Source: an uncultured Mucilaginibacter sp. (GTDB taxonomy: Bacteria; Bacteroidota; Bacteroidia; Sphingobacteriales; Sphingobacteriaceae). From it: a stretch of DNA of 33,743 bases. The position numbers were made by a program, and so were the translations under genes. Positions 5,332-32,799 of this stretch are shown piece after piece. The notes under the pieces were generated by a model that did not search any database, had not been told where the DNA came from, and was given only the letters and a program-made list of their open reading frames with translations. The stretch lies in assembly GCA_913777515.1 (NCBI GenBank), contig CAJYSL010000040.1, positions 1 to 33,743 of the forward strand, in the 5' to 3' direction. The stretch's first letter is position 1, and each line of letters begins with the position of its first letter.

Positions 5332-6072
5332 ATGACTGAATATCAGGGAATAAAATTTAAGGAATACCTTAACCGGAAGAATATAAAAGTGGTTGATGCA
5401 GCCCGGCAGTTGGGTGTGAGCCGGCAAAATTTGTATCAGTATTTCAGGTCTGATACACTCTCGCGCGAGACTGTCAATAACTTATTGACAGTCTTTAAAA
5501 CCTCGGAGCAGGAAATTTTCGGCACCCAGCCCGAACCGGTTAACGGCAAGGCCATGGGCGAAGTAAACTACCCGCTCGACCCTAACGACACACCTTTTGT
5601 GGACATTGGCGGCGGCCAGTACCTCATGATTGTGCCCCTGGTAAACGAGTATGCCTACGCCGGTTACCTGGCAGGCTACAAGGATACCGAGTACATTGAG
5701 TACCTGCCCAAGCATACCATTGTGGTGCAAAAGCAGCACCGCGGCCACTACCGCGCCTTCGAGGTCATCGGCGAGAGCATGGAAAACCCCGAACTTCCGC
5801 GCGAGAGTATTTATGACGGGTCTATTGTAACCGGCAGAGAGGTGCAGCCTCACCTGTGGCGCAGCCGCCTGCACACCCACCGCTGGAAAGATTTTGTAAT
5901 TGTGCATAAAGAAGGCATCCTGATTAAACGCATCGCCAGCCATAACGTAGACAACGGCCTGGTAGAGCTCGAATCGCTCAACCCCAACAAAGCGCAATAC
6001 CCCAACCGCACCGTGCACCTGGATGATGTGGACCAGATTTATAATATTGTAAATGTGACGCAGTATAGGTAG
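5332..6072 (+). CDS. Phage-type repressor: N-terminal HTH plus LexA/S24-like C-terminal domain
   Basis: HTH VVDAARQLGVSRQNLYQYF; S24-like Ser in FEVIGESM and Lys in GILIKRIASH; divergent from the minus-strand early genes. Confidence 0.8.
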   Translation: MTEYQGIKFKEYLNRKNIKVVDAARQLGVSRQNLYQYFRSDTLSRETVNNLLTVFKTSEQEIFGTQPEPVNGKAMGEVNYPLDPNDTPFVDIGGGQYLMIVPLVNEYAYAGYLAGYKDTEYIEYLPKHTIVVQKQHRGHYRAFEVIGESMENPELPRESIYDGSIVTGREVQPHLWRSRLHTHRWKDFVIVHKEGILIKRIASHNVDNGLVELESLNPNKAQYPNRTVHLDDVDQIYNIVNVTQYR

Positions 6073-6228
6073 TGGTTAACTCGTTAATGGTTTATTGAGT
6101 TATTAGGTAATTGGGAGAAGTGAATTTTGGATGTGCAGATGAAAGCTAATGAGTGAATGACAGATTGAGTGAATGAGTGAATTCTTGGTTCTTGGCTCTC
6201 TGCTTTGGTTCTTGGCTCTCTCCACCGC

Positions 6229-6300
6229 GTCATGGCGAGGACACGAAGCCATCTCTTTAAGCTGAGCCAGCGTTTAGGCTTGCCGATTGGTGTAGGTTAG
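6229..6300 (+). repeat. GTCATggcgaggacacgaaGCCATctc hairpin repeat with ctgagccagcgttt tail
   Basis: Same module near 3630, 4361, 4477, 10549, 12187, 12274 and 28440. Confidence 0.75.
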
Positions 6301-6405
6301 GTTAGTGTAACGAGAAGTTTTGCGTTCTAATATTAGGTTCTTTATTAACTTATTTCAATCTCCTCATTGTATTCTAAGTAAAAAGCAAGGAATAATTTAA
6401 TTTTT

Positions 6406-7395
6406 TCAGGCAGCTGAGAGGACAAACGGCGTTTGCCTTTTGACCACGGCAAAGACCCTTGCAATAAGTTTATTTTTGATGATGTTGAGCGTGCTCATTT
6501 TGCTTTTGCCTTCCTGGGTTCTTTTCTGGTAATAAGCTCTGAGCTCACTATCAGTTTTAACGGCATTGTTGGCACACAAAAACAGCAGGCTTTTGATGTG
6601 CTTGTTGGCCAGGTGCGACACTCTTGTTTTGCCCTTGATGGAGGTGCCCGAGGAGTGCGGAAAAGGCGCAATGCCGCAATAGCAGGCAAACTTTCGCCAA
6701 CAGTCAAAGCGGCTGAAGTTGTGCGTGTATACAATCAGATAACTGGCTGTCAGCGGACCGATGCCCTTGATGCCGGTCACCAGCTTAAAGGTGTTTTTCA
6801 CAGCCGGGTCCTGACTGATGATTTCGGCAATGGCTGCTTCCAGTTTTTTGATCTGTACCGACAAGTCACGGATGATCTGGGCATACACTGCAAAAAGGTC
6901 TTTATGATCCTTTTTTACAAATACAGATTGGCGCTCCTGACAGGTGGCACGGTAGGTTGCCCGCTGTGTAACTAACTGATCTCGAAGAGAAAGCAGGGGC
7001 TGCAGGCGCTGAATACTCTGTCCAGGCAACTGGCTGGGTTTTAGTTGGTCTTTTTTCAGGCAGGCATAAGCAGCAATCCTTCGGGCGTCGAGCTCATCGC
7101 TTTTGCCGCGCGTAGTACCCAGTGAGCGCTTGATATCCAGGGCCGGTACGATCGCAAAAAGCAGGTTCTTGCTTTGTAAAAACAGCGAAAGGTTGAGCGA
7201 GTAAATGCCGGTGTGCTCAAAGCAGATCAGTGCGCTTTTAAGCTCCTGTGCACCCAGGTGAGTCTGTAGCCAGCGTAGCAGCAGGGCAAAGCCTTTGGCA
7301 TTGTTGGCGAATGGTTGTTTAAGGTTTTTAGCGTGGATGAAAGCATCGAAGGTAAGTTTAGAAACATCGATACCAATGAATGCGGTGTAATGCAT
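6406..7395 (-). CDS. IS110-family transposase (DEDD/RuvC-like plus Transposase_20-like C-terminus)
   Basis: 329 aa; FIGIDVSK, CFEHTG, GKSDELDARRIA, TGIKGIGPLTASYLIVY, ACYCGIAPFPHSSGTSIKG. Confidence 0.92.
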   Translation of the reverse strand: MHYTAFIGIDVSKLTFDAFIHAKNLKQPFANNAKGFALLLRWLQTHLGAQELKSALICFEHTGIYSLNLSLFLQSKNLLFAIVPALDIKRSLGTTRGKSDELDARRIAAYACLKKDQLKPSQLPGQSIQRLQPLLSLRDQLVTQRATYRATCQERQSVFVKKDHKDLFAVYAQIIRDLSVQIKKLEAAIAEIISQDPAVKNTFKLVTGIKGIGPLTASYLIVYTHNFSRFDCWRKFACYCGIAPFPHSSGTSIKGKTRVSHLANKHIKSLLFLCANNAVKTDSELRAYYQKRTQEGKSKMSTLNIIKNKLIARVFAVVKRQTPFVLSAA

Positions 7396-9458: not shown

Positions 9459-10367
9459 TTACCATCTCCACACCAAAATGCGGCTTACTTTTTGACCTTG
9501 CGACATGGGGATGGTTTTTACTTCGGCGGCGCCCAGGTAGTCGAGCGATTTGTAGCAGCCCGGCAGGGTGGTTTTTTGCGAGATGAGCGACGAAAACCAC
9601 TTGCACTGACCGGCAAACTGTTTGCTTTCGCTCATCATTTTGTTTAAAAAGCGAGGTTCGCCGCCTTCGCACCACAACTCGTTATTGCGGCCGCCAAAGT
9701 TGAGGCCCGCGCCCGTATCCTGTCCCAGTTTTTCCCACTTGCGCTGCGATTTTTCTTTCACCTCGCGCGATGACGAATGGAAAGGCGGGTTGCACATTGT
9801 AATGTCGAACTTTTCGCCAGACTTAATGATGCCCTCGAAGATATGGTTGTACGACGTTTGCTTACGGATTTGAATGGCCTTGCCCAGCCCGTTGGCTTCT
9901 ACCGTTTTTTGGGCCCAGGCGGCGGCAATATAGTCGGTCTCGCTGCCCACAAAGTTCCAGCCGTAGGTTTGGTGCCCCAGCAGCGGGTAAATGCAGTTGG
10001 CGCCTACGCCCACATCCAGCACCTTGATGCCGGGGCCGGTAGGGATGATGCCGTTGTTGCCCTCGGCCAGCACATCGGCCAGGTAATGCAGGTAATCGGC
10101 CCGGCCGGGTATGGGCGGACATAAAAAGCCTTCGGGAATGTCCCACGAAGTTACTTTGTAATAATTTTTTAGCAAAGCCTGGTTAAGCACCTTTACAGCC
10201 TCCGGGTCGGTAAAATTAATGGTCGGCTCGTTCTGCTCGTTGCGGGTAAGGTACCGGCGCAGGGCAGGTAGGGCTTTGGTTAGCTCGCTAAAGGGGTACC
10301 GCCCGCGGTGCAAATTGCGCGGGTGCAGGTTGGTTTTATCGGCCGGGGTAGTAGGAGGTGTGCTCAT
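9459..10367 (-). CDS. rlmF: 23S rRNA (adenine(1618)-N(6))-methyltransferase
   Basis: NPPFHSS motif, GGRNNELWCEGGEPRFLNKMM, SRILVWRW; likely start MSTPPTTPADKTNLHPRNLHRGRY. Confidence 0.92.
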   Translation of the reverse strand: MSTPPTTPADKTNLHPRNLHRGRYPFSELTKALPALRRYLTRNEQNEPTINFTDPEAVKVLNQALLKNYYKVTSWDIPEGFLCPPIPGRADYLHYLADVLAEGNNGIIPTGPGIKVLDVGVGANCIYPLLGHQTYGWNFVGSETDYIAAAWAQKTVEANGLGKAIQIRKQTSYNHIFEGIIKSGEKFDITMCNPPFHSSSREVKEKSQRKWEKLGQDTGAGLNFGGRNNELWCEGGEPRFLNKMMSESKQFAGQCKWFSSLISQKTTLPGCYKSLDYLGAAEVKTIPMSQGQKVSRILVWRW

Positions 10368-10766
10368 GTATCGGGTGCTGCTTTGGCGCAAAGGTACGGA
10401 TTTAGTCCGTGAGTCGGTCGAGTTGGGAAGTCAATGAGTAGATGATAGATTGAGTGAATGAGTGAGTGAAAACCAATGAGTGAATGAGTGGTGAGTGAGT
10501 GATTGTTTTGATGCCTGGTTCCAGGCTCTTGGCTCATTTTCCCCAGCGCGTCATGGCTTCGTATCCTCGTCATAACGCGCTGAGGAAGAGAATACAGATT
10601 AAAGAATCAAGAATACAGACGTCTGATTAGGTCGGTTACCTATCACGAGTAACAAGATTTCTCGTTAGTACTCGAAATGACAGATTGATGAAGGAAGCTA
10701 CGAACCAAGAGCCAGGAATCAAGAGCTAAGAACCAAGATTTGTATGCGCATCTGCAAATTAATAAT

Positions 10767-13686: not shown

Positions 13687-14123
13687 GATAGTAAGATTTT
13701 TAAGTGGTTAGCGCTTTTTACATAGAGGCCGGCATTATTTTATTGAGCTGTTGTTTTAGCTAAACATCTTATTTTTGTCTTCGCTTCGTAATGCTTTATT
13801 TTACCAGGCTCCAATACACTAACCGAGCGAGATTGGGCGATCGTCAATATGAATAGGTTTTGATGCAGAGCGTTATGTGTACAGACAATTGAGCCCGCCA
13901 CCCCCTAAAGCAGAAGCCCCACCTAAATCCTCCCCGGGAGGGAGGACTTTAAAAAGCATGATTGGTAATTCATTTAATACTTTTCATATTGCTTTTGCTG
14001 CCGTAAGTTTCTGGCTCGTGGTGTAATTGGCTGAATAGGAATTTGCTGGATTAATGAATTTACAGAATTAAAAGTCCACTCCGCAACTCAAACTTCTGCT
14101 CCCCCTTTAGGGGGCCGGGCGGC

Positions 14124-14960
14124 TTAAAAAGAATGCAGCCGGGTAACCAGCCCCTGGTAGTTGCCAAGGTTCTCTTTGATTTCTTTGGCGTAAGAAATTA
14201 CATTAGTTTCGTCCCAAATTTTGTCCATTAACTTATACAGGTACCTTAAACGGCCATGAGGCGTAATAACTTTGATAGGATTATGCTGTTGCCTAAACGA
14301 CGTTGGCTTAGGTTTTAGCTGCATGGCAATGTCGTACTGCAATCTGTCTTCCTCAAATTCGGCCAGGGCCAGTTGATGGATGTAGTGGCCGCGTTGCTGG
14401 TTAATTTCGTTTATCAGTTGCCGTATTTCCTGATTTTCTTCATCATCGTCGGCCCGGTTGTGTTTATGACGATTGACGTATACATTTACCTCGCCGCTGT
14501 AACAAATCATGTAATCGAGCAAGGTTCGCAAATCATCGGCCGTGGTACGGGATAGCAAGTCATCTTTTCCGGTGAGGGTTTCAACGTCATAATGCCACGT
14601 CGTTGCATGAAACGCACGAACAGGCGATTTCGAAGGTATTTCGGCAAATAAATCAAGCCCGTAAAAGCGCATCTCATCGTGCCAACGTTTTACCAGTACA
14701 AAATAGTCCTTGCCCGGATTTTCACGTTCGGCTTTTTCGTAAAACCAATTAAACAAGCTCCACATTTCCTCGATGGATAGTAGCTCTACATTTTCATCAA
14801 TTTTGAGCAGTACGTTTTCAAAAACTACCGGCTCGTCGTATCGCGACGCGGGCAACTTGGCAATCTGCTGTTGGTAATCGGTAGCTGCGGTAAGCAAAGC
14901 CGGCAAATTTGCACGGGCAGCTTCTTTATCAAATCTAAAAAAGTAAAGTTCTTCGGCCAT
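14124..14960 (-). CDS. Hypothetical protein
   Basis: 278 aa ORF with normal composition; no recognised family. Confidence 0.7.
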   Translation of the reverse strand: MAEELYFFRFDKEAARANLPALLTAATDYQQQIAKLPASRYDEPVVFENVLLKIDENVELLSIEEMWSLFNWFYEKAERENPGKDYFVLVKRWHDEMRFYGLDLFAEIPSKSPVRAFHATTWHYDVETLTGKDDLLSRTTADDLRTLLDYMICYSGEVNVYVNRHKHNRADDDEENQEIRQLINEINQQRGHYIHQLALAEFEEDRLQYDIAMQLKPKPTSFRQQHNPIKVITPHGRLRYLYKLMDKIWDETNVISYAKEIKENLGNYQGLVTRLHSF

Positions 14961-15017
14961 CGGATTTTATATGAAGTTAAAATTAGGAGCCCCCCCCCTT
15001 TAGGGGGCCGGGGGGCT

Positions 15018-15800
15018 TTAAAACGTCTTCTTCTTTTCTAACTCCGGCAGGGCTTCGTCGATGCGGCGGGCCAGTTCGGGCATTTTGATGGTGGGCACGG
15101 CCGGGAACAGGTGGTGTTCCAGATGGTACAGCATGCCAAAGGTGATGAGGTTTTTCCAGCCCTCGCGCTGGGTGCGGGCAAACTCGGGCTGGTCGTGCGT
15201 GTCGTGGTGAACGGTCCACACGGCAAAAAACGAAATCAGGAACTCACCCACCAGCATTACGGCCATGTGGTACATCACAAAATGCAGCCGAAAGTAAAAG
15301 GCCGCAAATACCATGGCCGCGATAGACAGCATCTCGAGGATGACGTTGCGGCGGTAATTGCGGTTGGCCAGTTGCAGCGTTACCTTATGGATGAGAAACA
15401 TGTGCACCGGTCCGTACAAAATGGCGCCATACCAGGTCATGCCGGCCGACCGGCCTTCATGGTCTTGCTCGGTCATAGTGTATTTGTGGTGGCGCATGTG
15501 GGTAAACTTAAACGCGTGGATAGACACCATCATGAGCATGCTGTTGAGGTACATAGACAGCCAGGTTAAAAACCTATTGGTGCCCAAAGAGTTATGAAAT
15601 CCGTTATGCACCTGCCGCAATCCCGTCAAAAAGAAGAAAGCCGAAAACGGCAACGCCAATAAATAATATCCCTTGTAAGCCAGCCCTATCGAAATCACAA
15701 ACCACGGAATGGTAAGGTTATTTTCGATGAGCATCTCCTTGGGCGACAGATTTTTTAAATCCTTCCACTTTACCTTTTTGAGTATTTCCTGGTGCGTCAT
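15018..15800 (-). CDS. Fatty acid desaturase family protein
   Basis: Histidine boxes HNGFHN, HMRHHKYT, HHDTHD, HLEHHLFP. Confidence 0.88.
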   Translation of the reverse strand: MTHQEILKKVKWKDLKNLSPKEMLIENNLTIPWFVISIGLAYKGYYLLALPFSAFFFLTGLRQVHNGFHNSLGTNRFLTWLSMYLNSMLMMVSIHAFKFTHMRHHKYTMTEQDHEGRSAGMTWYGAILYGPVHMFLIHKVTLQLANRNYRRNVILEMLSIAAMVFAAFYFRLHFVMYHMAVMLVGEFLISFFAVWTVHHDTHDQPEFARTQREGWKNLITFGMLYHLEHHLFPAVPTIKMPELARRIDEALPELEKKKTF

Positions 15801-15951
15801 GCCGTGGTGTGTTTGGGTAAGTTAAAGGTAGGGAATTACCCCCCAACCCCCTAAAGGGGGAGTAGAAATTTTATTTGCCCGCTAGCTCGAGCCCCCCGGC
15901 CCCCTAAAGGGGGAGCAGAAGTTTGATTTGCTACCTATTTAGCGAAAGCCC

Positions 15952-16069
15952 TATTTAGCGCTAGTCTTAGTGCGGCTGTTTGGTGTGGTGGCCTGACTTG
16001 TGCTTTCGATTAAACAAGCACGAGTCTGGCCTTTGCTCAATTCCCCGGCACTAAGACTTGCGCTAAATG
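15952..16069. repeat. About 118-bp foldback repeat, copy 1
   Basis: Arms ATTTAGCGCTAGTCTTAGTGC (15953-15973) / GCACTAAGACTTGCGCTAAAT (16048-16068), 20/21 complementary; copy 2 at 19679-19797. Confidence 0.85.
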
Positions 16070-16100
16070 AGGGGGCGGGGCGATATTTTTCTCCCAACCC

Positions 16101-16140
16101 GTCGTGCCGAATTCATTTCGGCATCCCACATGCTAAGTGA
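16101..16140 (+). repeat. gtgccgaattcatttcggcat hairpin repeat
   Basis: Near-identical copy at 30511-30550; variant gatgctgaaataaattcagcatgac at 16769-16800. Confidence 0.75.
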
Positions 16141-16204
16141 TAGATTTGCAAGCGGGAATGCATGGTATAATGCTGAACTCAGTTAAGTATTAATTCGCGG
16201 GGGA

Positions 16205-16654
16205 CTATTTATTAGGATAACTCATTTTAATATTATCAGTAAGATATTTGTTTACAATAGTAATCAGCTTCGCAAGTTGGCTATTGTAAACATTAGAAAA
16301 GTCAACAACTTTTTTGGTGCCGGATGTTACCCAAACAAATCGTTTTTGGTCGCCATCCTGTGTTAAAGGGTTTTTATAGGTTGCCTTCAGGTGTTTAGTT
16401 GGTGCCGAATTAAGGAAATGAGATAATTGGTTAACAGCTTGTTTAGCTAACGTTTTCCGGAATAATACTTTTGATGGCTCGCCCTGTAGTCCACTTAGTT
16501 TTACAACAATCAGCTTGTTGCCAATGATATGATAATGCAATGTGTAAGACATAGAAGCATTGTAATCATAAATGTCCAATGCGAGTTCATTAAACTTCGG
16601 AGGCGAAATAGCGTTTGTTATCAATATCCATAAGATGGCTAATAGTATTTTCAT
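16205..16654 (-). CDS. Hypothetical secreted protein
   Basis: 149 aa with N-terminal hydrophobic signal (MKILLAILWILITNAIS). Confidence 0.6.
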   Translation of the reverse strand: MKILLAILWILITNAISPPKFNELALDIYDYNASMSYTLHYHIIGNKLIVVKLSGLQGEPSKVLFRKTLAKQAVNQLSHFLNSAPTKHLKATYKNPLTQDGDQKRFVWVTSGTKKVVDFSNVYNSQLAKLITIVNKYLTDNIKMSYPNK

Positions 16655-16861
16655 GCGGTTTGCCTTGTAGTTGCGATTAATACCTATTTGACTTTATTCA
16701 TGTTTAAAATAACACTAATACTTGCACCAAAAAGATGTGTGGGAGTGTATGGAGGTCAACTTGTCTGATGGGATGCTGAAATAAATTCAGCATGACAGGG
16801 CGGGGAACGTAAGAAAATACTACACCATCAGCATTCAAAAAATCTTACCTTCAACACCCAT

Positions 16862-17269
16862 ATGGCAGCACTCGAATTACATTATACCGAAGCCGAATTT
16901 AACAAGCTATCCGGTAATCAAATAACCGCATTGGCTTTTTTGCAACAAGTAATGAAGCGCGAGGGCGACGAAACGGCTAACCAGGGCAACAAGCCCTTAG
17001 TGCTGGCCCAACTGGTGAGTTACCACAACCACACCGGCGCAGCGCCCCAGATTGAAGATTTTGAGTTGCTAGATGCTACCTGGGATGCAGCAACCTTATC
17101 CGGTAAAGTAAAAATCAAGTACACCATACAACGGTTTTACGGCTGCTCTGATATGAACACCGCCGAAAACGACCACGAAACCTGGAGTTACCACATGGAC
17201 ACCCACCGTAAATGTGTGGTGGTTAACGCGCCGGATTTTGAGAGGTTGAGTCCGGGTGATGAGTTTTGA
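16862..17269 (+). CDS. Hypothetical protein
   Basis: 135 aa ORF with coding-like composition. Confidence 0.65.
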   Translation: MAALELHYTEAEFNKLSGNQITALAFLQQVMKREGDETANQGNKPLVLAQLVSYHNHTGAAPQIEDFELLDATWDAATLSGKVKIKYTIQRFYGCSDMNTAENDHETWSYHMDTHRKCVVVNAPDFERLSPGDEF

Positions 17270-17304
17270 TTTGGGTGGAGGGTTGGTTTGATGAATTATT
17301 TAAC

Positions 17305-17397
17305 GCGAGTATGTAGGGTAGGGGTAGTGCAAGGGCTACTCGTGCCCAGGTGCTTAAGTCATGAGTAGCCAGCTAAAAGCCATTGCTACATACTCGC
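17305..17397. repeat. Nested-palindrome repeat, best copy
   Basis: Outer GCGAGTATGTA (17305-17315)/TACATACTCGC (17387-17397); inner GGCTACTCGTG (17334-17344)/CATGAGTAGCC (17360-17370). Degraded relatives near 19820, 23050, 26045, 26450 and 26935. Confidence 0.85.
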
Positions 17398-17458
17398 GGC
17401 AGGTGGGAGGGCTATATTGAGCACCTTAAACTTAAGGGAAAATACAATATTTTAAATA

Positions 17459-22886: not shown

Positions 22887-23265
22887 GGGGGTATTGGTTA
22901 TTGAGTTGAATAGGGGGTAAAGGTAGTGTAATGGATGTTTGCTTGTGTATTTAGTTTCGGTGTGAGGTGGTAGATGGATTGGGGAGGTTTATGGTTTCAT
23001 TAGGTTGGTAGAGTTTATGGTTTTTTATAAGCGTGTGAAGTGTAAGGTTTCCTATGGGCTACTTGCACCCAAGCGTTTAAGTCATGAGTAGCTTGCCCAC
23101 AAGCCAACGCTACATACTCGCGCCAGTTGGAGGGCTATTACTAAAATTTGTATTTAGTCAGTATTTTGCTAATTAATGATTTAAACAAGTTATTTTTACT
23201 GTAATTAACTATGTTAAATTCTTGGGTATATTTAATTATTAGACGTTAATCACTGAATAAGGATA

Positions 23266-25428
23266 ATGGAATTTATTGTAACATCAAGCGATATTAGGCA
23301 GAATGAAGGAGTAAATAATACTTTTGAGAACTTTAAATTAATTGCTCAAAGAAGGGATGGCTATTGTTATTACAAATATCCGATTGCCGGTGGGCTTAAT
23401 TCCGATATTCCTGATTTAGCAATTGCAGATTTGGAGTATGGTGTTTGTTTGTTAAACTTTCAATCTTTTTTGAAGCTTGATGATATAGCAGAACTGCGAG
23501 ATTATGAGTGGGTTGTTAGAAATTCGATTGTTGACTCTCCCGTTTTAAAATTAGAGGACTATGTTGTAAATCTAAAATCGAAATATGATAAGTTTCGCCC
23601 ATTAAGAGGAAAAATTAAGATCAACTATTTTGTAGTGTTTCCTTTAATTAAAAGAAGTGATTTTTTAAGAAAGTTTAAAGAATACGATATTGTAGAACAT
23701 TGTAAGTTTGCTGATGAGCTTAGTAGTCCTTATGATAGTTACTGGCCTCAAAAGGCTAATTTCTTTGATAGTCAGACAAAAAAATTGTTTCTATCGGTGA
23801 CGCAGGGAGCCGGACGATTGAATGATTACAAAAGGTTAATTGAAGGAGCCAAATCATCGGTGATCGGTGAAGCGATTAAATTGATTGATACGAAGATTGC
23901 TTATTTAGATAAGCAACAACATGCCGCTGCAGTCCAAATACCAGACGGTCCACAGAGGATCAGAGGAATGGCTGGGACTGGTAAAACAATTATTTTGACT
24001 ATGAAGGCCGCGTTCTTGCATAGCAGATATCCTGATAAAAAGATATTATATACCTTTCATACTCAAAGTCTATATAATCAAATAAGGGACTTAATAACGA
24101 AATTTTATCGCGAAAACGAAGAGAAGGATCCGAACTGGAGTAACTTATTGATAATGCATTCCTGGGGAGGAAAGGCAAAAGAGGGTGTTTACTCTAGAAC
24201 TTGTTTAAGAAATTCAATTTCCCCGCTACCTTATGTTATAAATAGTCAAAACGGTACTTTAGGTTACGTTTGCGAAAAGGCATTAGCTTATAAAATTTCG
24301 GAAGAATATGATTTTGTTTTGATGGATGAGGCTCAGGACTTTCCTCCAAGTTTCTTTCAATTAATCTATCGATTAACTTATGCACCGAAAAGGATCATTT
24401 TTGCATATGATGAGTTACAATCCCTGAACAAATTATCAATTTTAGATACTGGCGAATTATTTGGATTAGAGCCAGATGGTAGCAAAGTTGTTGATTTTAC
24501 ATCAGGTGTTTACGAAGGTGGAATTGAAATGGATTTCGTCCTTTATAAATCTTATAGGAATCCTCTAGAAGTTCTTATGACTGCTCATAGTATTGGTCTT
24601 GGAATTTATAACAGAGATGGTTATATGCAGATTATAGATAGTAGAGAGGTTTGGAGAGCTATAGGATATAACGTTTTGGAAGGAGAATTCACTCATCCCG
24701 ACGAAAACATAGTAATAGAACGACCTAAAGCTAACAGTTTAAGTTTGGCTTACGAATTATACTCTGGAAATCGTAAATCACTTGAATACAAAAGTTTTAA
24801 GTCGAGGGAAGAGGAGATCAGTTGGATTTCGAACTCAATAGTAAATGATATTAAAAATGAAGGTGTTGAGCCGGAAAATATCCTGGTGATCTCAATCAAC
24901 CAAAGCTTGATTGAGAAGTATTTTATACCACTTCAAAATAAGTTATTCAACAAAGGTATTCCAAGTATAATTCCTGGAGTTGGAGGAATTGACCGTGATA
25001 AATTTGGTGAGAAAGGATTTGTGACCTTATCAACTGTTTACAAGGCTAAAGGTAATGAGGCCTTCATTGTCTACGTTATGGCGTTTGACTTCTTATATGA
25101 TTTTGTTGATTTTGTCACTGCACGTAACAGAGCTTTTACGTCAATAAGTCGTTCAAAAGGATGGTGCACTATTACTGGGATTCAAGAAGCGATGGATCGA
25201 GCTGTTGCGGAAATAGATGAAACGATGAGCAATATACCAATGTTTAAATTTAAGTTTCCTGATCCGTTAAAAGTTGAAAGAAAATTAAGTCAAGAAGAAC
25301 ATGCTCGCAGGTTGCAAGTCAAACAACGTAGTAGTCAGGCTATCAAAGAGCTGTTAGCTGCTGATGACGAAGCCGTACAGTTGACTGATGAGGAGCGCGA
25401 AGCTTTAAGAAAAAAATTTAACTTATGA
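23266..25428 (+). CDS. SF1 (UvrD/Rep-like) helicase with a possible degenerate NERD-like N-terminus
   Basis: Walker A GMAGTGKT, Walker B LMDEAQD, FAYDELQSL motif III region, STVYKAKGNEAFIVYV and VTARNRAFTSISRSKGW motifs V/VI. Confidence 0.85.
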   Translation: MEFIVTSSDIRQNEGVNNTFENFKLIAQRRDGYCYYKYPIAGGLNSDIPDLAIADLEYGVCLLNFQSFLKLDDIAELRDYEWVVRNSIVDSPVLKLEDYVVNLKSKYDKFRPLRGKIKINYFVVFPLIKRSDFLRKFKEYDIVEHCKFADELSSPYDSYWPQKANFFDSQTKKLFLSVTQGAGRLNDYKRLIEGAKSSVIGEAIKLIDTKIAYLDKQQHAAAVQIPDGPQRIRGMAGTGKTIILTMKAAFLHSRYPDKKILYTFHTQSLYNQIRDLITKFYRENEEKDPNWSNLLIMHSWGGKAKEGVYSRTCLRNSISPLPYVINSQNGTLGYVCEKALAYKISEEYDFVLMDEAQDFPPSFFQLIYRLTYAPKRIIFAYDELQSLNKLSILDTGELFGLEPDGSKVVDFTSGVYEGGIEMDFVLYKSYRNPLEVLMTAHSIGLGIYNRDGYMQIIDSREVWRAIGYNVLEGEFTHPDENIVIERPKANSLSLAYELYSGNRKSLEYKSFKSREEEISWISNSIVNDIKNEGVEPENILVISINQSLIEKYFIPLQNKLFNKGIPSIIPGVGGIDRDKFGEKGFVTLSTVYKAKGNEAFIVYVMAFDFLYDFVDFVTARNRAFTSISRSKGWCTITGIQEAMDRAVAEIDETMSNIPMFKFKFPDPLKVERKLSQEEHARRLQVKQRSSQAIKELLAADDEAVQLTDEEREALRKKFNL

Positions 25429-25985
25429 GTACGATAAGAGCGTTGCATCATAATTTGGATATTTTCTATAAAAGCAATTTTGAGAAGTGGAGTATGTCAA
25501 ACCCTCTCTATGCAATATCGCCAGACAAAAAGACATTGACATGGTATAATTATCAAACTAAACAATCCTTTTACTCTTACGAAGAATATTATGCTTGGGT
25601 TGCCGATAATTTACAGTACAGTATAGCTTTGGGAGAAAATATTTTACTGCAAATATTTTATCAAGAATTAGAAAATGGTGTCAGTAAAGGATCGTTGAGT
25701 TTCCTACCTCATCCCGATTTGCTTATGACATATATGAGATTTGATATGGATAAAAATAATTGGAAACATTATTATCACAATTCTTTCCACATTCATTTTG
25801 GCTATAGATCAGAGGAATTGAGGTTTAGCTTAAATAGGTTTCCTCATCCAAGTGAATTTATTAGATTTTGTTTATTTCTTATGGGGAATGACGAGTTTGA
25901 AAATTTCAATAGAAATAGATTTTTCAATGACCTAACTACGTTTGGAGAACGCCACTCCCATATTTTTGATTTTACACTTACTTAG
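25425..25985 (+). CDS. DUF2290-like protein, translationally coupled to the helicase
   Basis: ATGA overlap with the helicase stop; TYMRFDMDKNNWKHYYHNSFHIHFGYRSEELRFSLNRFPHPSEFIRFCLFLM resembles the conserved core I associate with DUF2290. Confidence 0.65.
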   Translation: MSTIRALHHNLDIFYKSNFEKWSMSNPLYAISPDKKTLTWYNYQTKQSFYSYEEYYAWVADNLQYSIALGENILLQIFYQELENGVSKGSLSFLPHPDLLMTYMRFDMDKNNWKHYYHNSFHIHFGYRSEELRFSLNRFPHPSEFIRFCLFLMGNDEFENFNRNRFFNDLTTFGERHSHIFDFTLT

Positions 25986-26165
25986 TTAATTTACTAAATA
26001 GGTTAAATTAAACTTATTTGAATAGTTAATTACCCACTCACTGGCGGGAGTATGTCGCGTAGATCAAAGCGCTACCTACTCGTGCCCTTTTATCAAGTCA
26101 GAATTAGCCCACCCGCCACCAGGGTCTTCATACTAGCCAGTAAAATGTAATACCCAGTGTCCTAA

Positions 26166-26393
26166 TTAAATCTTCGCACGGCGAAGTATCGCATTCACCT
26201 CTAATTCGCTAACGCCTAGTTTTATAGCTATAAGAGCCTGTAGTTCCAGTTCCGCTGCTTGTATCTTTTTAAAGGTCGAGAGGTTATATAGTGCTTTGGC
26301 TATCAACACCATAATGATAAAACCTACGATGGCCATTGCTGCTCCAAAAAATTCCATGACGTAAATCGCCAATGCTCCACTAAATAATAACAT
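26166..26393 (-). CDS. Small membrane protein
   Basis: 75 aa, two hydrophobic segments. Confidence 0.5.
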   Translation of the reverse strand: MLLFSGALAIYVMEFFGAAMAIVGFIIMVLIAKALYNLSTFKKIQAAELELQALIAIKLGVSELEVNAILRRAKI

Positions 26394-26524
26394 AAGGTAA
26401 ATATCTTATAAAATTTATATCTATCAATTCGGCATGTGTATCCCAACCTAATGCGGGTATGTCGGGTCAGCAAAAGCACTATCTATTCCGGCTACAGCTG
26501 ACCGAGCCAAATTTCCACATAACA

Positions 26525-26896
26525 TCACCCATCAGCCCGCCCTGCTTCTTCCACGTATTCGATCCACAACTGCACTATAGTTCTCAAATCCTGTAAGGGT
26601 ACCGATTGCTGCAGTACGTTTGCTGTTGCCCCAATACCAAAAAAATGAACTTCGTTTTGGGAGATCCAGCCGATGTAGATTTCTGACTTCACGGTTTGTT
26701 TTTCTACGTCAAAGTCTCCGCCGTTAATGTGATGGTCCAGAATAGCTATCACCTCTTCCAAACTTTCTCTGTCTATGGAGGTGGCCAAAAAATCTGCTAC
26801 AGCACTGCCGGTAGCCACCGGCAGTGTGAGGTGGTGCAAATTTAATATCCAAAAACGAAGGTTATATTTTGCTAATACATCAACCATCTGCATCAA
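26525..26896 (-). CDS. Hypothetical protein
   Basis: 123 aa ORF, no recognised family. Confidence 0.55.
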   Translation of the reverse strand: MMQMVDVLAKYNLRFWILNLHHLTLPVATGSAVADFLATSIDRESLEEVIAILDHHINGGDFDVEKQTVKSEIYIGWISQNEVHFFGIGATANVLQQSVPLQDLRTIVQLWIEYVEEAGRADG

Positions 26897-27349
26897 AACT
26901 TAAATATACGTCTAAATGGGTTGCCCATAATTGGGCACAAGTATGTAGTATAGGTCAAAGCATGGGCTATTCGTGCCCTTGCGTACATAATCGAGAATAT
27001 TTTGCCACTATCCAGCCCAACATACTTGCGTCAGTAATCAACCATCCTCGTTTTAAAACTTCACCTGGTGCCAATTTAAATATTCTTGCGCGGGTTTAAA
27101 GTAGGGGTATTTCAATTAATTTTAACAACTCTGACATTCCATTATGTAATTGATAACGAGGTGGCAATAACCTAAAAATATCTTCAGTTTATTAAAGAAT
27201 AGTTAAGTTAATAGTGGGTATTAATTGTCTGGTATATAGAATTTTAAAGGTCAAAAAGATGCTAAGATGTTATCATAACATGAAAACATCTTACACGCTG
27301 TAAGCTCGTACGGAGTTTAGATTTGGTTAACCAATTTTATTCTCTTATT

Positions 27350-27859
27350 ATGAAAACACTAAAAACCTTATTATCGGGATCGTTTATCATGATCTCATTT
27401 TTGTGCGTGGCAGCTTCGTTGCAGAGCTTTACGGTCAGATCCGAAAACGGCAAAAAGCCACTTTTAATCCCCAAAGCGGTAAAATCGAATCTGGTCAACA
27501 AACAAACCGTTGCCGACAGTTCTGAGTTTACTGTTTACTTAGATCAAAACCTGGCATCTACCGATTGGACAGTCACATTTTCGGGGTACGATGACGATCA
27601 CAACTACATCACCAAAGTATTTACCGTTAATTCCGGCTCATATATCATGGGTAAGTTGCCTTACGGGTATTATGACGTAGACGTTAACTGCGATAACTAT
27701 AACGGAAGCACTGAGATAGACATGTCGGCCTACGGCTACAGCGATAATCTCCGCCACGAAACTGCGTACATCTTTTATTACGGCGCACCTAATAAAATAT
27801 TTCACAGCGTAGATTTACATTCATCTTACGGCATGCAGATAGGGTTTAGTAATTATTAA
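27350..27859 (+). CDS. Hypothetical secreted protein
   Basis: Signal peptide MKTLKTLLSGSFIMISFLCVAASLQS; followed by a terminator. Confidence 0.7.
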   Translation: MKTLKTLLSGSFIMISFLCVAASLQSFTVRSENGKKPLLIPKAVKSNLVNKQTVADSSEFTVYLDQNLASTDWTVTFSGYDDDHNYITKVFTVNSGSYIMGKLPYGYYDVDVNCDNYNGSTEIDMSAYGYSDNLRHETAYIFYYGAPNKIFHSVDLHSSYGMQIGFSNY

Positions 27860-27876
27860 AAATTGATGATTTTATT

Positions 27877-27908
27877 AAAGCCGCTTTTAAATAGAGCGGC
27901 TTTTTTTG
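27877..27908 (+). terminator. Rho-independent terminator
   Basis: aaagccgcttttaaatagagcggcttttttt. Confidence 0.85.
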
Positions 27909-28018
27909 TTAAAAAAGACCTGTCGTAGCTGGTACCTGGTGTTGTTGAGGCAAAAGGGGTTTGTGCGTTTACCTCAATTGCAAGGGGATGCCGAACCCCC
28001 CCAGCCCCTTCAGGGGGA

Positions 28019-28372
28019 GTTAGCCCCCAACCCCCTAAAGGGGGAGCAGAAGACTTAATAGAATTATCTTCCCCGAAAGGTAGTACTTTTTTTAGGTTGT
28101 GGTGGCTAATTCTGAAGATTCAATAATTCTGTAAATTCTGATTCTAACTAAATACATAGCAAGTTAAACTCCTTCCTGTCCTCCCGAGGGAGGGATGATT
28201 TGCATTAGGTTTGTCGCTCATCGCAAGCGCAAAGGCCCGCTGTTGCGCCCGGGCCAGCGTGGGGCATGTGCGGCGGTGAGGTGATCGCAACAGCTAGGCC
28301 TTTTGGGTACTTTGTGGCTATGACAAAGTACCTGGCCTCCGCGGCCAAGAGCGGACGAAGTAAGTAAACAAC
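28019..28372. repeat. Left arm of composite inverted repeat around the ompA-like gene
   Basis: Module order agrees with the reverse complement of 30581-30902. Confidence 0.75.
28234..28300 (-). repeat. 67-bp GC-rich palindromic repeat, copy 3
   Basis: ggcccgctgttgcgcccgggccagcg...cgcaacagctaggcc. Confidence 0.85.
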
Positions 28373-28783
28373 TACAAGCTTTAATTCAATGCACACAAGC
28401 TTTCATTACACTAAGCCTATCAAGTGGCAAGTCTAAATGCTGGCTCAGCTCAAAGAGATGGCTTCGTATCCTCTCCATGACGCGACGGGGAGAACCACGA
28501 ACTAAGAAAAAAAGGTCAGCCTGCCAACTCACTCGTTCACTCAATCTATCATCCACTCATTGGCTTTCACTCACTCATTATCCCCATCTGCACACCTGCA
28601 AATCCGCACATATGCAAATTCAAAACTCACTCATTAGCCTCAATTCGTCACAAAAAAGTTACACCCTCAGGTTGTAAAAATGGTGTTTTTGGGCTGTTTT
28701 GGGGGTTTTATCGGTCATTTTATATGATGTGGATAATTTTTGCAAAACCATTTTCGGGGTTTGTGCTTAATGGAGTGTGATTT

Positions 28784-30130
28784 ATGAAAACTCTATCTAT
28801 TATGAAAATTAACTTTACCAAATTGGCTCTCACCTTAGGAGTGGCGGGCCTGGCAACTGCCGCCTCAGCGCAGAGTATGTATTCCGACACCAGTAAACGT
28901 TTTGATAAACGCAGCTTCCGCACCTGGTCTATCGGACTTAACGGCGGTATGTTAACTCATTACACACCGTTTAACGGCCCAAGCAACGGCGATTTTGCTA
29001 CACCGCAAGAGCGTTGGGGTTACGGGGGTTACATCAAAAAGCAAATCGTACCTGGCTTTGGTATCCAGGCCGACTTTTTGGGTGGCCGCGTAAAAGGTTT
29101 CCGCTCAAACCAGTTGCCAACCGGTAGCGCTGCACAAAACAACAGCGATTTCCGTACTAAAATTGAGTGGTCGGCTTCGTTAAGCGGTAACTTTACCGTA
29201 GCTAACTTAAGCTTAAATCAAAAACGTAACATCTTGTCGCCATACTTAACCGGTGGTGCTGGTTATATGTCGTTTAGTCCGGCAGTAAACAACGTACCGG
29301 GTGCTGATGGACAAGGTTACCGCCGCAACTGGTTTGTACCGGTGGGTGCAGGTTTTAAATTTGGTTTGGCCAAGTTTGTTAATCTTGATTTAGGTTACAC
29401 CGTATACTTCATGAAAACCGGCCGTTTTGATGGTGTGCGCACTTCAACCAACGACCGTTTCTCATACGCTCACGCTGGTTTAGAGTTTGCCTTGGGCAAA
29501 CGCGGAACTTCGCAATTGCAAAACTTCAGCCCGATTGCCGCCATCCGCGAGGAAAGTGCTGCCGAGAGTGCTGAGCTGAGAAGAATGTTATCAACCGCTG
29601 AGCAAAACGCTGCCCGCGACCGTGAGCAATATGCCCGCGATATGGGTGATGATGATGGCGATGGTGTAGCTAACAAATTTGACAAATGTGCCGGTACTCC
29701 TGCTGGTACTGTAGTTGATGGTTCTGGCTGTCCGTTAAAAGTACCTACTCCGGTAATCCGCGAAAAAGTAGTTATCACCGAGGCCGACCGTCGTGTAGTA
29801 GGCGAGGCTATCAAAAACCTGGAGTTTGAATTAGGTAAAGCTACCATCAAAGAAAGATCATTCCCAACCTTAGACCGCGTTGCGGCCCTGTTGATGGAAA
29901 AAGATTTTGGTTTGAAATTAGCCGGCCACACTGATAACACCGGTTCGATGGAACTGAACATGCGTTTATCAAAAGAGCGTGCCGAAGCCGTTAAAACTTA
30001 CTTGGTAGAAAAAGGTGCCAACGCATCACGCATCGAAGCAACAGGTTATGGCCCAACTCAGCCTATCGCATCAAACAAAACTGCCGAAGGCCGTCAGAAA
30101 AACCGTCGTGTAGAGTTTACCTTGTTGTAA
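28784..30130 (+). CDS. OmpA family outer membrane protein (beta-barrel, TSP3-like linker, OmpA peptidoglycan-binding domain)
   Basis: Signal peptide, DDDGDGVANKFDKCAGTPAGTVVDGSGCPL, LAGHTDNTGSMELNMRLSKERAEAVKTYLVEKGANASRIEATGYGPTQPIASNKTAEGRQKNRRVEF. Confidence 0.93.
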   Translation: MKTLSIMKINFTKLALTLGVAGLATAASAQSMYSDTSKRFDKRSFRTWSIGLNGGMLTHYTPFNGPSNGDFATPQERWGYGGYIKKQIVPGFGIQADFLGGRVKGFRSNQLPTGSAAQNNSDFRTKIEWSASLSGNFTVANLSLNQKRNILSPYLTGGAGYMSFSPAVNNVPGADGQGYRRNWFVPVGAGFKFGLAKFVNLDLGYTVYFMKTGRFDGVRTSTNDRFSYAHAGLEFALGKRGTSQLQNFSPIAAIREESAAESAELRRMLSTAEQNAARDREQYARDMGDDDGDGVANKFDKCAGTPAGTVVDGSGCPLKVPTPVIREKVVITEADRRVVGEAIKNLEFELGKATIKERSFPTLDRVAALLMEKDFGLKLAGHTDNTGSMELNMRLSKERAEAVKTYLVEKGANASRIEATGYGPTQPIASNKTAEGRQKNRRVEFTLL

Positions 30131-30209
30131 GCAACACCAAAGCAGAGCGGGGCAGTTTATAGTCTGTTCCGCCCTGATTGTGATTTTGAATAAAGTTAAG
30201 TGATTATGC

Positions 30210-30243
30210 AAGCCGGCTCTGGTAAAACAGGGCCGGTTTTTTT
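30210..30243 (+). terminator. Rho-independent terminator
   Basis: aagccggctctggtaaaacagggccggttttttt. Confidence 0.75.
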
Positions 30244-30580
30244 GTTGATGTAATTTTAGGGGATTCCTGATTTCGCTGATGAGGAGAGTGATTGCACTGA
30301 TTTGGAACTAATGAGTGAGTTTTGATGAGCAGATATGCAAATGTTAGGATGAGAAAGTCCATTAGTGAGTGAAAGCCAATGAGTGATTGGTTGAATGAGT
30401 GAATGGAAGCCAATGAGCGAATTTTGAATGAGTGAATGAGCGAATAGCAGGTCGAACTTTTATCCTGGTATTTGGTTCTTGTATCTTGGTTCTTGGCTCT
30501 CTCCCGCCCAGTCATGCCGAATTTATTTCGGCATCCCACATGCTAAGTCATTTACGGTTTCTGCTGATTGTTAATTAAGA

Positions 30581-30902
30581 CAGTAGTTGTTTACTTACTT
30601 GGCCCGCTCTTGGCCGCGGAGGCCAGGTACTTTGTCATAGCCACAAAGTATCCAAAAGGCCTAGCTGTTGCGATCACCTCGCCACCGCACAAACCCCATG
30701 CTGGCCCGGGCGCAACAGCGGGCCTTTGCGCTTTTACCCCCCAGCCCCCTATAAGGGGGAGTTTTTGATTTCTAGGGCAGTGTTTAAAGAAATTTAGAAT
30801 CAGAATTTACAGAATTGCCCGTTTAGCCCTAAAAAGTACTACCTTTCGGGAAAGATAATTCTTTTAAGTCTTCTGCTCCCCCTTCAGGGGGTTGGGGGGC
30901 TA
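30581..30902. repeat. Right arm of composite inverted repeat around the ompA-like gene
   Basis: Reverse complement of the left arm modules, in the same order. Confidence 0.75.
30658..30724 (+). repeat. 67-bp GC-rich palindromic repeat, copy 4
   Basis: ggcctagctgttgcgatcacctc...cgcaacagcgggcc. Confidence 0.85.
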
Positions 30903-30920
30903 TTCACTTAAACTTACTGA

Positions 30921-31487
30921 ATGAAGAAAATTTCGACCTTGTTTAAAAAAGATCCCGAAAATTTGGGAAGAGTCATTAACGAAGTTAATTCCGAAAACGA
31001 ATGGGCTTTTGGGCAAAGCATGGCCACGCAAAAATTTGTTGGTACCGCCATGGCCATCATCGGCGGCGAGCTTTACAAACGTTACGACGTAAAAAAGGGC
31101 CGCGCCATCCCTGAGGGCGCTATTGCCTGCCAGGAGCCTGACGCCATCAGCGGCCACCATCCGCATTGGGTTAAATGCAGCCGCGACGCTAAAGAAGACC
31201 GCTATGCGTTTGAGGCTTTTGACCAGCTGGCGGCCAACAACGCAGTTACCAACGATACTTACGAGCTTTGCGGACCCAAAGTGCAAAGCAATCCCGAAAG
31301 TTTTGAGGCCCATGTACTGGTAAAGCACGGCGACGCTAAGCTGGACATCGACACCCAAACCATGACATTTGACAGCCTGAAACAATTTTTAGAAGAACAA
31401 AATCTCGAAGGCATCGTGTTTCATGCTACCGACGGCTCGGGCCGGATGTGCAAATTGCGCAAAGCCGATTTCGGCATAAAAAGGTAG
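30921..31487 (+). CDS. RNA ligase 1 family-like protein (DUF5565 / human C12orf29-like)
   Basis: ATQKFVGTAMAIIGGELYKRYDVKKGRAIPEGAIACQEPDAISGHHPHWVKC, TYELCGPKVQSNPESFEAHVLVKHG, NLEGIVFHATDGSGRMCKLRKADFG; the last resembles [23 protein letters not shown] of C12orf29 as I recall it. Confidence 0.75.
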   Translation: MKKISTLFKKDPENLGRVINEVNSENEWAFGQSMATQKFVGTAMAIIGGELYKRYDVKKGRAIPEGAIACQEPDAISGHHPHWVKCSRDAKEDRYAFEAFDQLAANNAVTNDTYELCGPKVQSNPESFEAHVLVKHGDAKLDIDTQTMTFDSLKQFLEEQNLEGIVFHATDGSGRMCKLRKADFGIKR

Positions 31488-31752
31488 CCGGCTAGTCTGT
31501 AGTCTGCCTCCAAAATACAATTATTTATTCGCTATACCATGATGCCGGTTACGCTGCAAAAGCTCTTTATCTTGCTCATAACCGGTATCATCTAAAATAA
31601 TTAGTTACCCAACCTTAGTCTTTATATTCAAGCCATACATACTGTGCCACCCGATTAATCAAAAACTCCCCCTTTAGGGGGCTGGGGGGCTTGGCGAGCT
31701 CTAATCGTCCAAAAAAATGCGTATCCTTACAGCCTTAAACTAAACTTATCCA

Positions 31753-32799
31753 ATGCATATCCGATTTTGTGTTTGGGCCTGTTTGCTGGGCCTGGTTGTT
31801 GTAACAGGATGTAAAAAAGACCGCGTGCCCGAGTATCATGCCGACGGCGATGTGCGGGTGCTGATGAAAAATAATCCCGACGGCCCCAGTATTGTTTTTT
31901 TAGGCGATGGCTTTATTAAAGAAGACCTGGTTGTAGGCGGCGATTATGACCAGAAGGTCAAAACTTTGGTCGACTACCTGTTCTCAGTTCCTCCATTTAA
32001 CCGCTATAAAAATGTGTTTAATGTATACCAGGTGTACGCTATATCTAATCAGCGTGGCGCCCTCGATAGGCTAGACCCGCAAAGTACAGCAACTAAATTC
32101 AAGTCTTATTTTCCTGAAAACGACAGGCTGTTACAGTACGGCAATTATGATACCGTTTCAAAATACCTCGACAAGGTGATGCCCTATTGGCAAGTAAATT
32201 TACCCGTATTGTTGGTAAATGATAGTCGCTATGGCGGTTCTGGCGGTGGCGTGGCTATTGTTTCTGTTCATAGCAGTATGAAGTCTACCTTTGTACATGA
32301 AGTTGGTCATACGTTTGCCAGGTTGGCCGATGAATATGTGGAAACTGCCAGAGAAAAAGACAGGCCTTTGTTTGCTACTCAGTTTTATCCCAATGTTGAT
32401 ACTAGTAATAACCCGGCTACAGTTAAATGGAAGCATTATTTTAACCGGCCCAGGTATGCGGGCGTTGTAGGCATCTTTGAGGGGGGATATTACCATGCCA
32501 AAGGCGTTTACCGTCCGGAAGAAAACAGCGTGATGCGGAATAACATCACCACCCGCAACTTTAACGCCCCCAGCCGCGAAGCCATCGTAAGGCGTATTTA
32601 CGAAATTATGGGCAAACCTTTTGATCTCGAAGCTTATTTTAAAGAGGATTTAAATGTGATGGGCTACGCCGTGCAGACCGAGGCCAGCCCTGGCACCAGT
32701 TTGCCGCCTTTAACCGCCGACCATATCAATCAGCAACAACAACTCAAACTGATGCAGCAGCAAAGGGAGTATCGCTCACAAAAAACCCGTATACATTAA
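31753..32799 (+). CDS. M64-like (IgA peptidase type) metallopeptidase lipoprotein
   Basis: Lipobox VVVTGC; zinc motif FVHEVGHTFARLADEY; GDGF near the N-terminus. Confidence 0.85.
   Translation: MHIRFCVWACLLGLVVVTGCKKDRVPEYHADGDVRVLMKNNPDGPSIVFLGDGFIKEDLVVGGDYDQKVKTLVDYLFSVPPFNRYKNVFNVYQVYAISNQRGALDRLDPQSTATKFKSYFPENDRLLQYGNYDTVSKYLDKVMPYWQVNLPVLLVNDSRYGGSGGGVAIVSVHSSMKSTFVHEVGHTFARLADEYVETAREKDRPLFATQFYPNVDTSNNPATVKWKHYFNRPRYAGVVGIFEGGYYHAKGVYRPEENSVMRNNITTRNFNAPSREAIVRRIYEIMGKPFDLEAYFKEDLNVMGYAVQTEASPGTSLPPLTADHINQQQQLKLMQQQREYRSQKTRIH

Follow-up and report, generated by a model that had tools for sequence, protein, structure and literature searches.

A divergent Helicase+DUF2290 gene pair in an uncultured Mucilaginibacter and a candidate effector role for its DUF2290 protein

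Which member of a two-gene defence cassette is likely to do the damage? The question is raised by a pair of overlapping genes in an uncultured Mucilaginibacter sp. (contig CAJYSL010000040.1, positions 1 to 33,743; this whole stretch of 33,743 nucleotides is called the window below), the first encoding an SF1 helicase and the second a small protein of the uncharacterised DUF2290 family. Helicase+DUF2290 pairs are already known to be widespread and are included in defence-annotation tools, and another member of the family, Rst_HelicaseDUF2290, specifically inhibits phage T7 (Rousset et al. 2022, PMC9122126). A first-pass annotation of the locus had pointed to such a pair in those tools, and it does exist there as PADLOC models. 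The same annotation regarded the mechanism as poorly described, and indeed none is given in the literature found on Helicase+DUF2290. What is new in the present analysis is family-level evidence on which of the two proteins is the likely effector.

The two open reading frames lie on the same strand and, as had been claimed, overlap by the four letters ATGA (25425-25428; Table 1). The cassette is set apart from its surroundings by composition, with a G+C content of 0.34-0.36 across positions 23001-26000 against 0.54 in the rlmF region (rlmF, 9459-10391; Methyltransf_10, 378 bits); most of the window lies at about 0.39-0.55. The AT-richness noted earlier by comparison with rlmF is thus real, and the cassette departs from its flanks. 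The two-gene module was probably acquired horizontally. Genes for a ModE/LysR-like HTH protein and a TonB-type receptor (both Pfam assignments) lie 5' of it. Promoter-like sites occur at chance frequency and terminator-like sites are only slightly more numerous than expected (5 against 2.4), and the argument below draws on neither. Elsewhere in the window, at 5332-7395, an HTH/S24-peptidase repressor-like gene adjoins an IS110-family transposase.

Table 1. Features of the cassette and its right border, in window coordinates
Feature	Position	Strand	Basis
SF1 (UvrD/Schlafen-helicase-like) helicase, 720 aa	23266..25428	+	PADLOC, Pfam, AF2 fold matches
NERD-type (PD-(D/E)xK-like) domain without E-x-K, residues ~1-199	23266..23862	+	alignment, PADLOC, Pfam in relatives, AF2
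Degenerate active-site stretch IPDLAIADLEYGVCLLNFQSF, residues 48-68	23407..23469	+	alignment
Walker A GMAGTGKT, residues 234-241 (K240)	23965..23988	+	sequence, 47-member alignment
Walker B DEAQD, residues 354-358	24325..24339	+	sequence, 47-member alignment
Charged helical C-terminal tail, residues 664-720; candidate docking element	25255..25425	+	comparison; AF2 helix 667-698
DUF2290-family protein of compact form (186 aa), putative effector	25425..25985	+	PADLOC, Pfam, iterated profile, AF2
Conserved 75-aa flanking gene, right edge of cassette	26166..26393	-	ortholog in sister genome G048 borders PDC-M30 pair

The identity of the first protein is clear. It matches the PADLOC Helicase model PDLC03002 over residues 28-718 (E=2.1e-129), the PADLOC model C3a187 (NERD+UvrD) over residues 35-387, and Pfam UvrD-helicase (PF00580) at 37 bits. 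The intact SF1 motifs reported at first reading are present, with some 215 residues (estimated then as about 220) ahead of the helicase core. So are DELQ (Q385) and, in the later motifs, arginines R431 and R629. Across an alignment of 47 family members, K240, D354, E355, Q385, R431 and R629 are invariant. The AF2 model (pLDDT 88) finds its top PDB fold matches in SLFN11/14, Upf1, Dna2 and UvrD. Human Schlafen 11/14 are the best of these, and Pfam SLFN-g3_helicase is matched by 8 of the 47 relatives, a likeness that may possibly link the protein to RNA-targeting immune helicases. No homolog was found in a PDB sequence search with either the helicase or the DUF2290 protein (tail-spike matches at E=0.7 reflect chance), nor was any found in phage records by tblastn of the helicase.

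The second protein had been described as DUF2290-like, and the assignment holds, with matches to the PADLOC DUF2290 models PDLC02998 (E=4e-7) and PDLC02999 (E=1e-5). Against Pfam PF10053 it scores 23 bits, below the cut-off of 25 bits, and would therefore be overlooked by Pfam-based annotation; a DUF2290 profile iterated on relatives scores it at 94 bits. The family carries a polar signature that is close to invariant among 54 members: R105 and R133 occur in all 54, D107 and H118 in 53, and H122 in 52, while position 71 is D or E in 53 (D in 52, and E71 in the window). The window protein is unusually compact, with a P97-R105 spacing of 8 residues that it shares with a likewise short (179 aa) DUF2290 protein from Tannerella, as opposed to 32-83 residues in the other 52. 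Its AF2 model is confident (pLDDT 87, pTM 0.83) and places helices around an antiparallel sheet, and a fold search of that model against PDB and BFVD gave nothing at E<=0.001, the best PDB match being no better than E=0.8. Searching plasmids by tblastn with this sequence, which is too divergent for the purpose, found none, and PHROGs held no match for the window protein.

Is the pairing of these two proteins more than an accident of one genome? A single scan across GTDB genomes turned up 80 loci with the helicase, and plasmid and other loci brought the comparable set to 87 helicases, the window included. A DUF2290 gene lies directly downstream in 64 of the 87, in the same order and on the same strand, mostly overlapping or within 10 nt. 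Such paired loci span Bacteroidota, Pseudomonadota, Bacillota, Planctomycetota, Cyanobacteriota and archaea, so that the arrangement has been kept from the window's own phylum to another domain of life. Approached from the other side, by a search with DUF2290 alone, all eight genes found adjoin a helicase. Given these two results, chance co-occurrence is untenable. The distribution is patchy all the same in the window's phylum (7 of 297 genomes). The nearest relative is the Tannerella pair, with a helicase about 50% identical. Some family members reside on plasmids, and one paired relative adjoins BREX genes.

Judged by sequence, the window pair is an authentic, divergent copy of the Helicase+DUF2290 anti-phage system. 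Both proteins, the gene order, the overlap and homology along the full length of the helicase are common to it and Rst_HelicaseDUF2290; the window copy differs in its compact, sub-threshold DUF2290 protein, and its own role in phage defence is a prediction. A further pair annotated as Helicase+DUF2290 is PA1371/PA1372 of Pseudomonas aeruginosa PAO1, which lies in a low-G+C island. The PA1372 helicase is a repeated target of mutation, and its loss removes both the cost of a plasmid and the SOS response that goes with it (PMC4410645, PMC11637435). The pair thus combines a helicase with a DUF2290 partner as in the window, likened here by annotation, and is known for its part in plasmid cost.

The genomic setting adds to the picture. 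In the nearest sister genome (G048) the OmpA protein is 92% identical and the flanking genes follow the same order, with matches to window 14081-17284 and 26177-32763, while the place opposite window positions ~23100-26100 is occupied by a different AT-rich (about 0.35) pair, PDC-M30A/B (L152:11979-13926), beside the conserved 75-aa gene. Both of its proteins are PADLOC phage-defence candidates (PDC-M30A, E=1.5e-134; PDC-M30B, a DUF5131 protein, 4e-114). Few as two genomes are, their simplest reading is that the site is likely a defence hotspot; in six other members of the genus only the OmpA gene was common to the insertion site, leaving one sister genome close enough to compare. Imperfect palindromes of ~45 nt, of the GGGCACAAGTATGTAG..GCTATTCGTGCCC type, occur at window positions 17302-17400, 23062-23130, 26043-26090 and 26934-26982; copies flank the cassette on both sides and one matches the sister genome. 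The motif CTACNTACTCGYGCC has 6 matches against 0.22 expected, and a first palindrome consensus, GTAGCG-N-CGCTAC, was rejected with 4 matches against 3 in the control. At 30921-31487 lies a gene for a 188-aa protein, 91% conserved in the sister species, that weakly matches RNA ligase 1 (PF17720, E=3.5e-6).

Much of the argument about mechanism turns on the residues that precede the helicase core. The first-pass annotation had called them non-helicase sequence and left them unnamed; they are indeed present, and can now be named as a NERD-type nuclease domain without E-x-K, an identity that accounts for the long N-terminus. The region aligns with the NERD helicases L005, L006, L009 and L025, Pfam NERD is matched by 7 of the 47 aligned relatives, and the order of helices and strands predicted by AF2 is consistent with a PD-(D/E)xK core. 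In stand-alone relatives the region is NERD nuclease-like, L005 for instance reading EPDILILHRELGLWVIECKG at the active site. At the same site of the window protein D50 is retained, and N64 and Q66 (NFQ) occupy the E and K columns, so that the PD...E-x-K pattern is absent. We infer that the NERD domain of the window helicase is catalytically dead.

Loss of this site goes hand in hand with the presence of DUF2290. E-x-K is found in 18 of the 23 stand-alone helicases and in none of the 64 paired ones (87 compared, window included). It is absent as well from six held-out paired loci, L103-L105 among them; the other three, L101, L102 and L106, duplicate loci already in the set at this site and are not counted as independent. 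A distant NERD helicase outgroup reads IEVKDW at the site and keeps E-x-K, which is therefore probably the older state. In a tree of the helicase core, from which the N-terminus was excluded, the main stand-alone group sits on one 100/100 branch. For that reason the mutual exclusion of E-x-K and DUF2290 is essentially a single evolutionary change, one event kept across many phyla without independent replicates. There are exceptions: the stand-alone helicases L056, L095 and L100 have a damaged E-x-K, and L079 falls within the paired clade with no visible DUF2290.

The opposite end of the helicase also distinguishes the two groups. All 64 paired helicases bear a C-terminal tail of 47-74 aa, as compared with most stand-alone helicases, which stop 13-30 aa past the point where the tail starts or bear other extensions. 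The stand-alone NERD-UvrD helicases (C3a187; "nuclease-related domain-containing DEAD/DEAH box helicase") are homologous over the whole length at about 30% identity; they keep E-x-K, have no DUF2290 partner and mostly lack the tail. A further exception is the second closest helicase to that of the window, from Ktedonobacteria (L022), which has no DUF2290 within 5 kb. At this locus (L022:4962-10251) the helicase bears the C-terminal tail but no longer E-x-K, and the next ORF (463 aa), which looks McrB-like by eye, is possibly an alternative partner.

Taken as a whole, these observations are best explained by a division of labour, a reading that we consider moderately probable. The SF1 helicase would act as an ATP-driven sensor that engages intermediates of phage (or plasmid) replication or repair, with the dead NERD domain and the C-terminal helical tail forming a platform that binds nucleic acid or docks the partner. 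The effector would be DUF2290, whose likeliest activity is that of a nuclease or RNase acting through D/E71, R105, D107, H118, H122 and R133, and it would stay inactive until the helicase is engaged. Once active it would halt phage propagation by cleaving nucleic acid, possibly through a translation shutdown like that of TumE (see below); this final step is the least certain. The case for DUF2290 as the damaging component is that a nuclease site has been lost from the helicases wherever a DUF2290 partner is present, while the partner itself carries the near-invariant polar signature. Weighing against the reading are the single event behind the exclusivity, the frailty of the likeness to TumE, the T7 inhibition having been reported for a different family member, and L022 with its lack of a nearby DUF2290. 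The nearest worked-out parallel is Hachiman, in which a helicase sensor (HamB) controls a nuclease effector (HamAB; PMC12278908). Gabija GajB and Nhi likewise combine a helicase with a nuclease function in defence, as proposed for the window pair. The likeness to these systems is distant: the window helicase matches GajB (E=2e-7) and Nhi (7e-7) weakly in PADLOC and otherwise shows no sequence similarity, HamB belongs to SF2, and the partners differ from DUF2290. Gabija itself was rejected as an assignment, the partner here being DUF2290 and not an OLD-family GajA nuclease.

Other accounts of the same data have to be weighed. The helicase could be the entire weapon, unwinding nucleic acid or displacing proteins in phage replication, with DUF2290 as an adaptor, specificity factor or inhibitor. 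The invariance of all its motifs would suit this account, as would the compensatory mutations recovered for the P. aeruginosa pair, which fell in PA1372, and DUF2290 has no recognisable enzyme fold. We nonetheless think it unlikely: the near-invariant D/R/D/H/H/R set of DUF2290 resembles an active site, and the loss of the nuclease site in cis coincides with obligate pairing. A different possibility is that the NERD domain of the paired helicases has stayed a nuclease by rearranging its active site, in the manner of restriction enzymes with E-x-E or E-x-Q (BamHI, BglII). The PD aspartate is retained in 48 of the 64 paired helicases and one large subclade reads FDLIEG at the site, but across the paired set the E and K columns hold 35 different residue pairs with no conserved acidic or basic residue, and the window has N and Q, which makes the idea improbable.

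One may also ask whether the pair serves anti-phage defence at all, rather than DNA repair or plasmid maintenance. In P. aeruginosa the family influences SOS and the cost of a plasmid, and some members occur on plasmids, which would suit a repair or maintenance module. Against this stand the published inhibition of T7, the relative beside BREX genes, the occupation of the site by another candidate defence pair in the sister species and the patchy distribution, and we give the proposal very little credence.

If the division of labour is accepted, where might the effector have come from? TumE (PF20126/DUF6516) is a translation-inhibiting toxin (PMC10584680) whose DGS...RxD...H...H motifs resemble those of the compact DUF2290 protein in order and spacing. 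In both proteins helices accompany an antiparallel sheet, and neither has a match in the PDB; the partner of TumE is a small antitoxin and that of DUF2290 a helicase. The motif order prompted one planned profile comparison, as distinct from a screen. When the match states were taken from the window protein's residues, hhalign scored 24.2 locally (E=0.0024) and 22.0 globally (E=3.5e-4) at a probability of only 12-16%, set against maxima of 18.6 and 9.1 for 120 column shuffles, 18.1 and 9.8 for 17 helicase-segment decoys, and 16.1 and 8.6 for 12 neighbour-family windows. Different sequence sets or rules for choosing match states lower the probability to about 0.4-3%, and the RxD pairs of the two families align two residues out of register. 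Among single TumE sequences, 3 of 11 reached the top 0.5% of 514 decoys locally and 2 of 11 globally. Homology between DUF2290 and TumE is thus no more than suggestive. It would fit a scenario, doubtful but worth stating, in which a NERD nuclease-helicase gained a TumE-like nuclease/RNase toxin in trans and its own site then decayed, the helicase sensor now controlling a toxin effector; the DUF2290 protein of the window would lie near the minimal catalytic core.

For the family, the analysis turns an uncharacterised DUF2290 protein into an effector candidate with named conserved residues. The compact DUF2290 protein is in addition a small construct suited to structural work, and the exchange of this cassette for a PDC-M30 pair at one site suggests where further systems may be sought.
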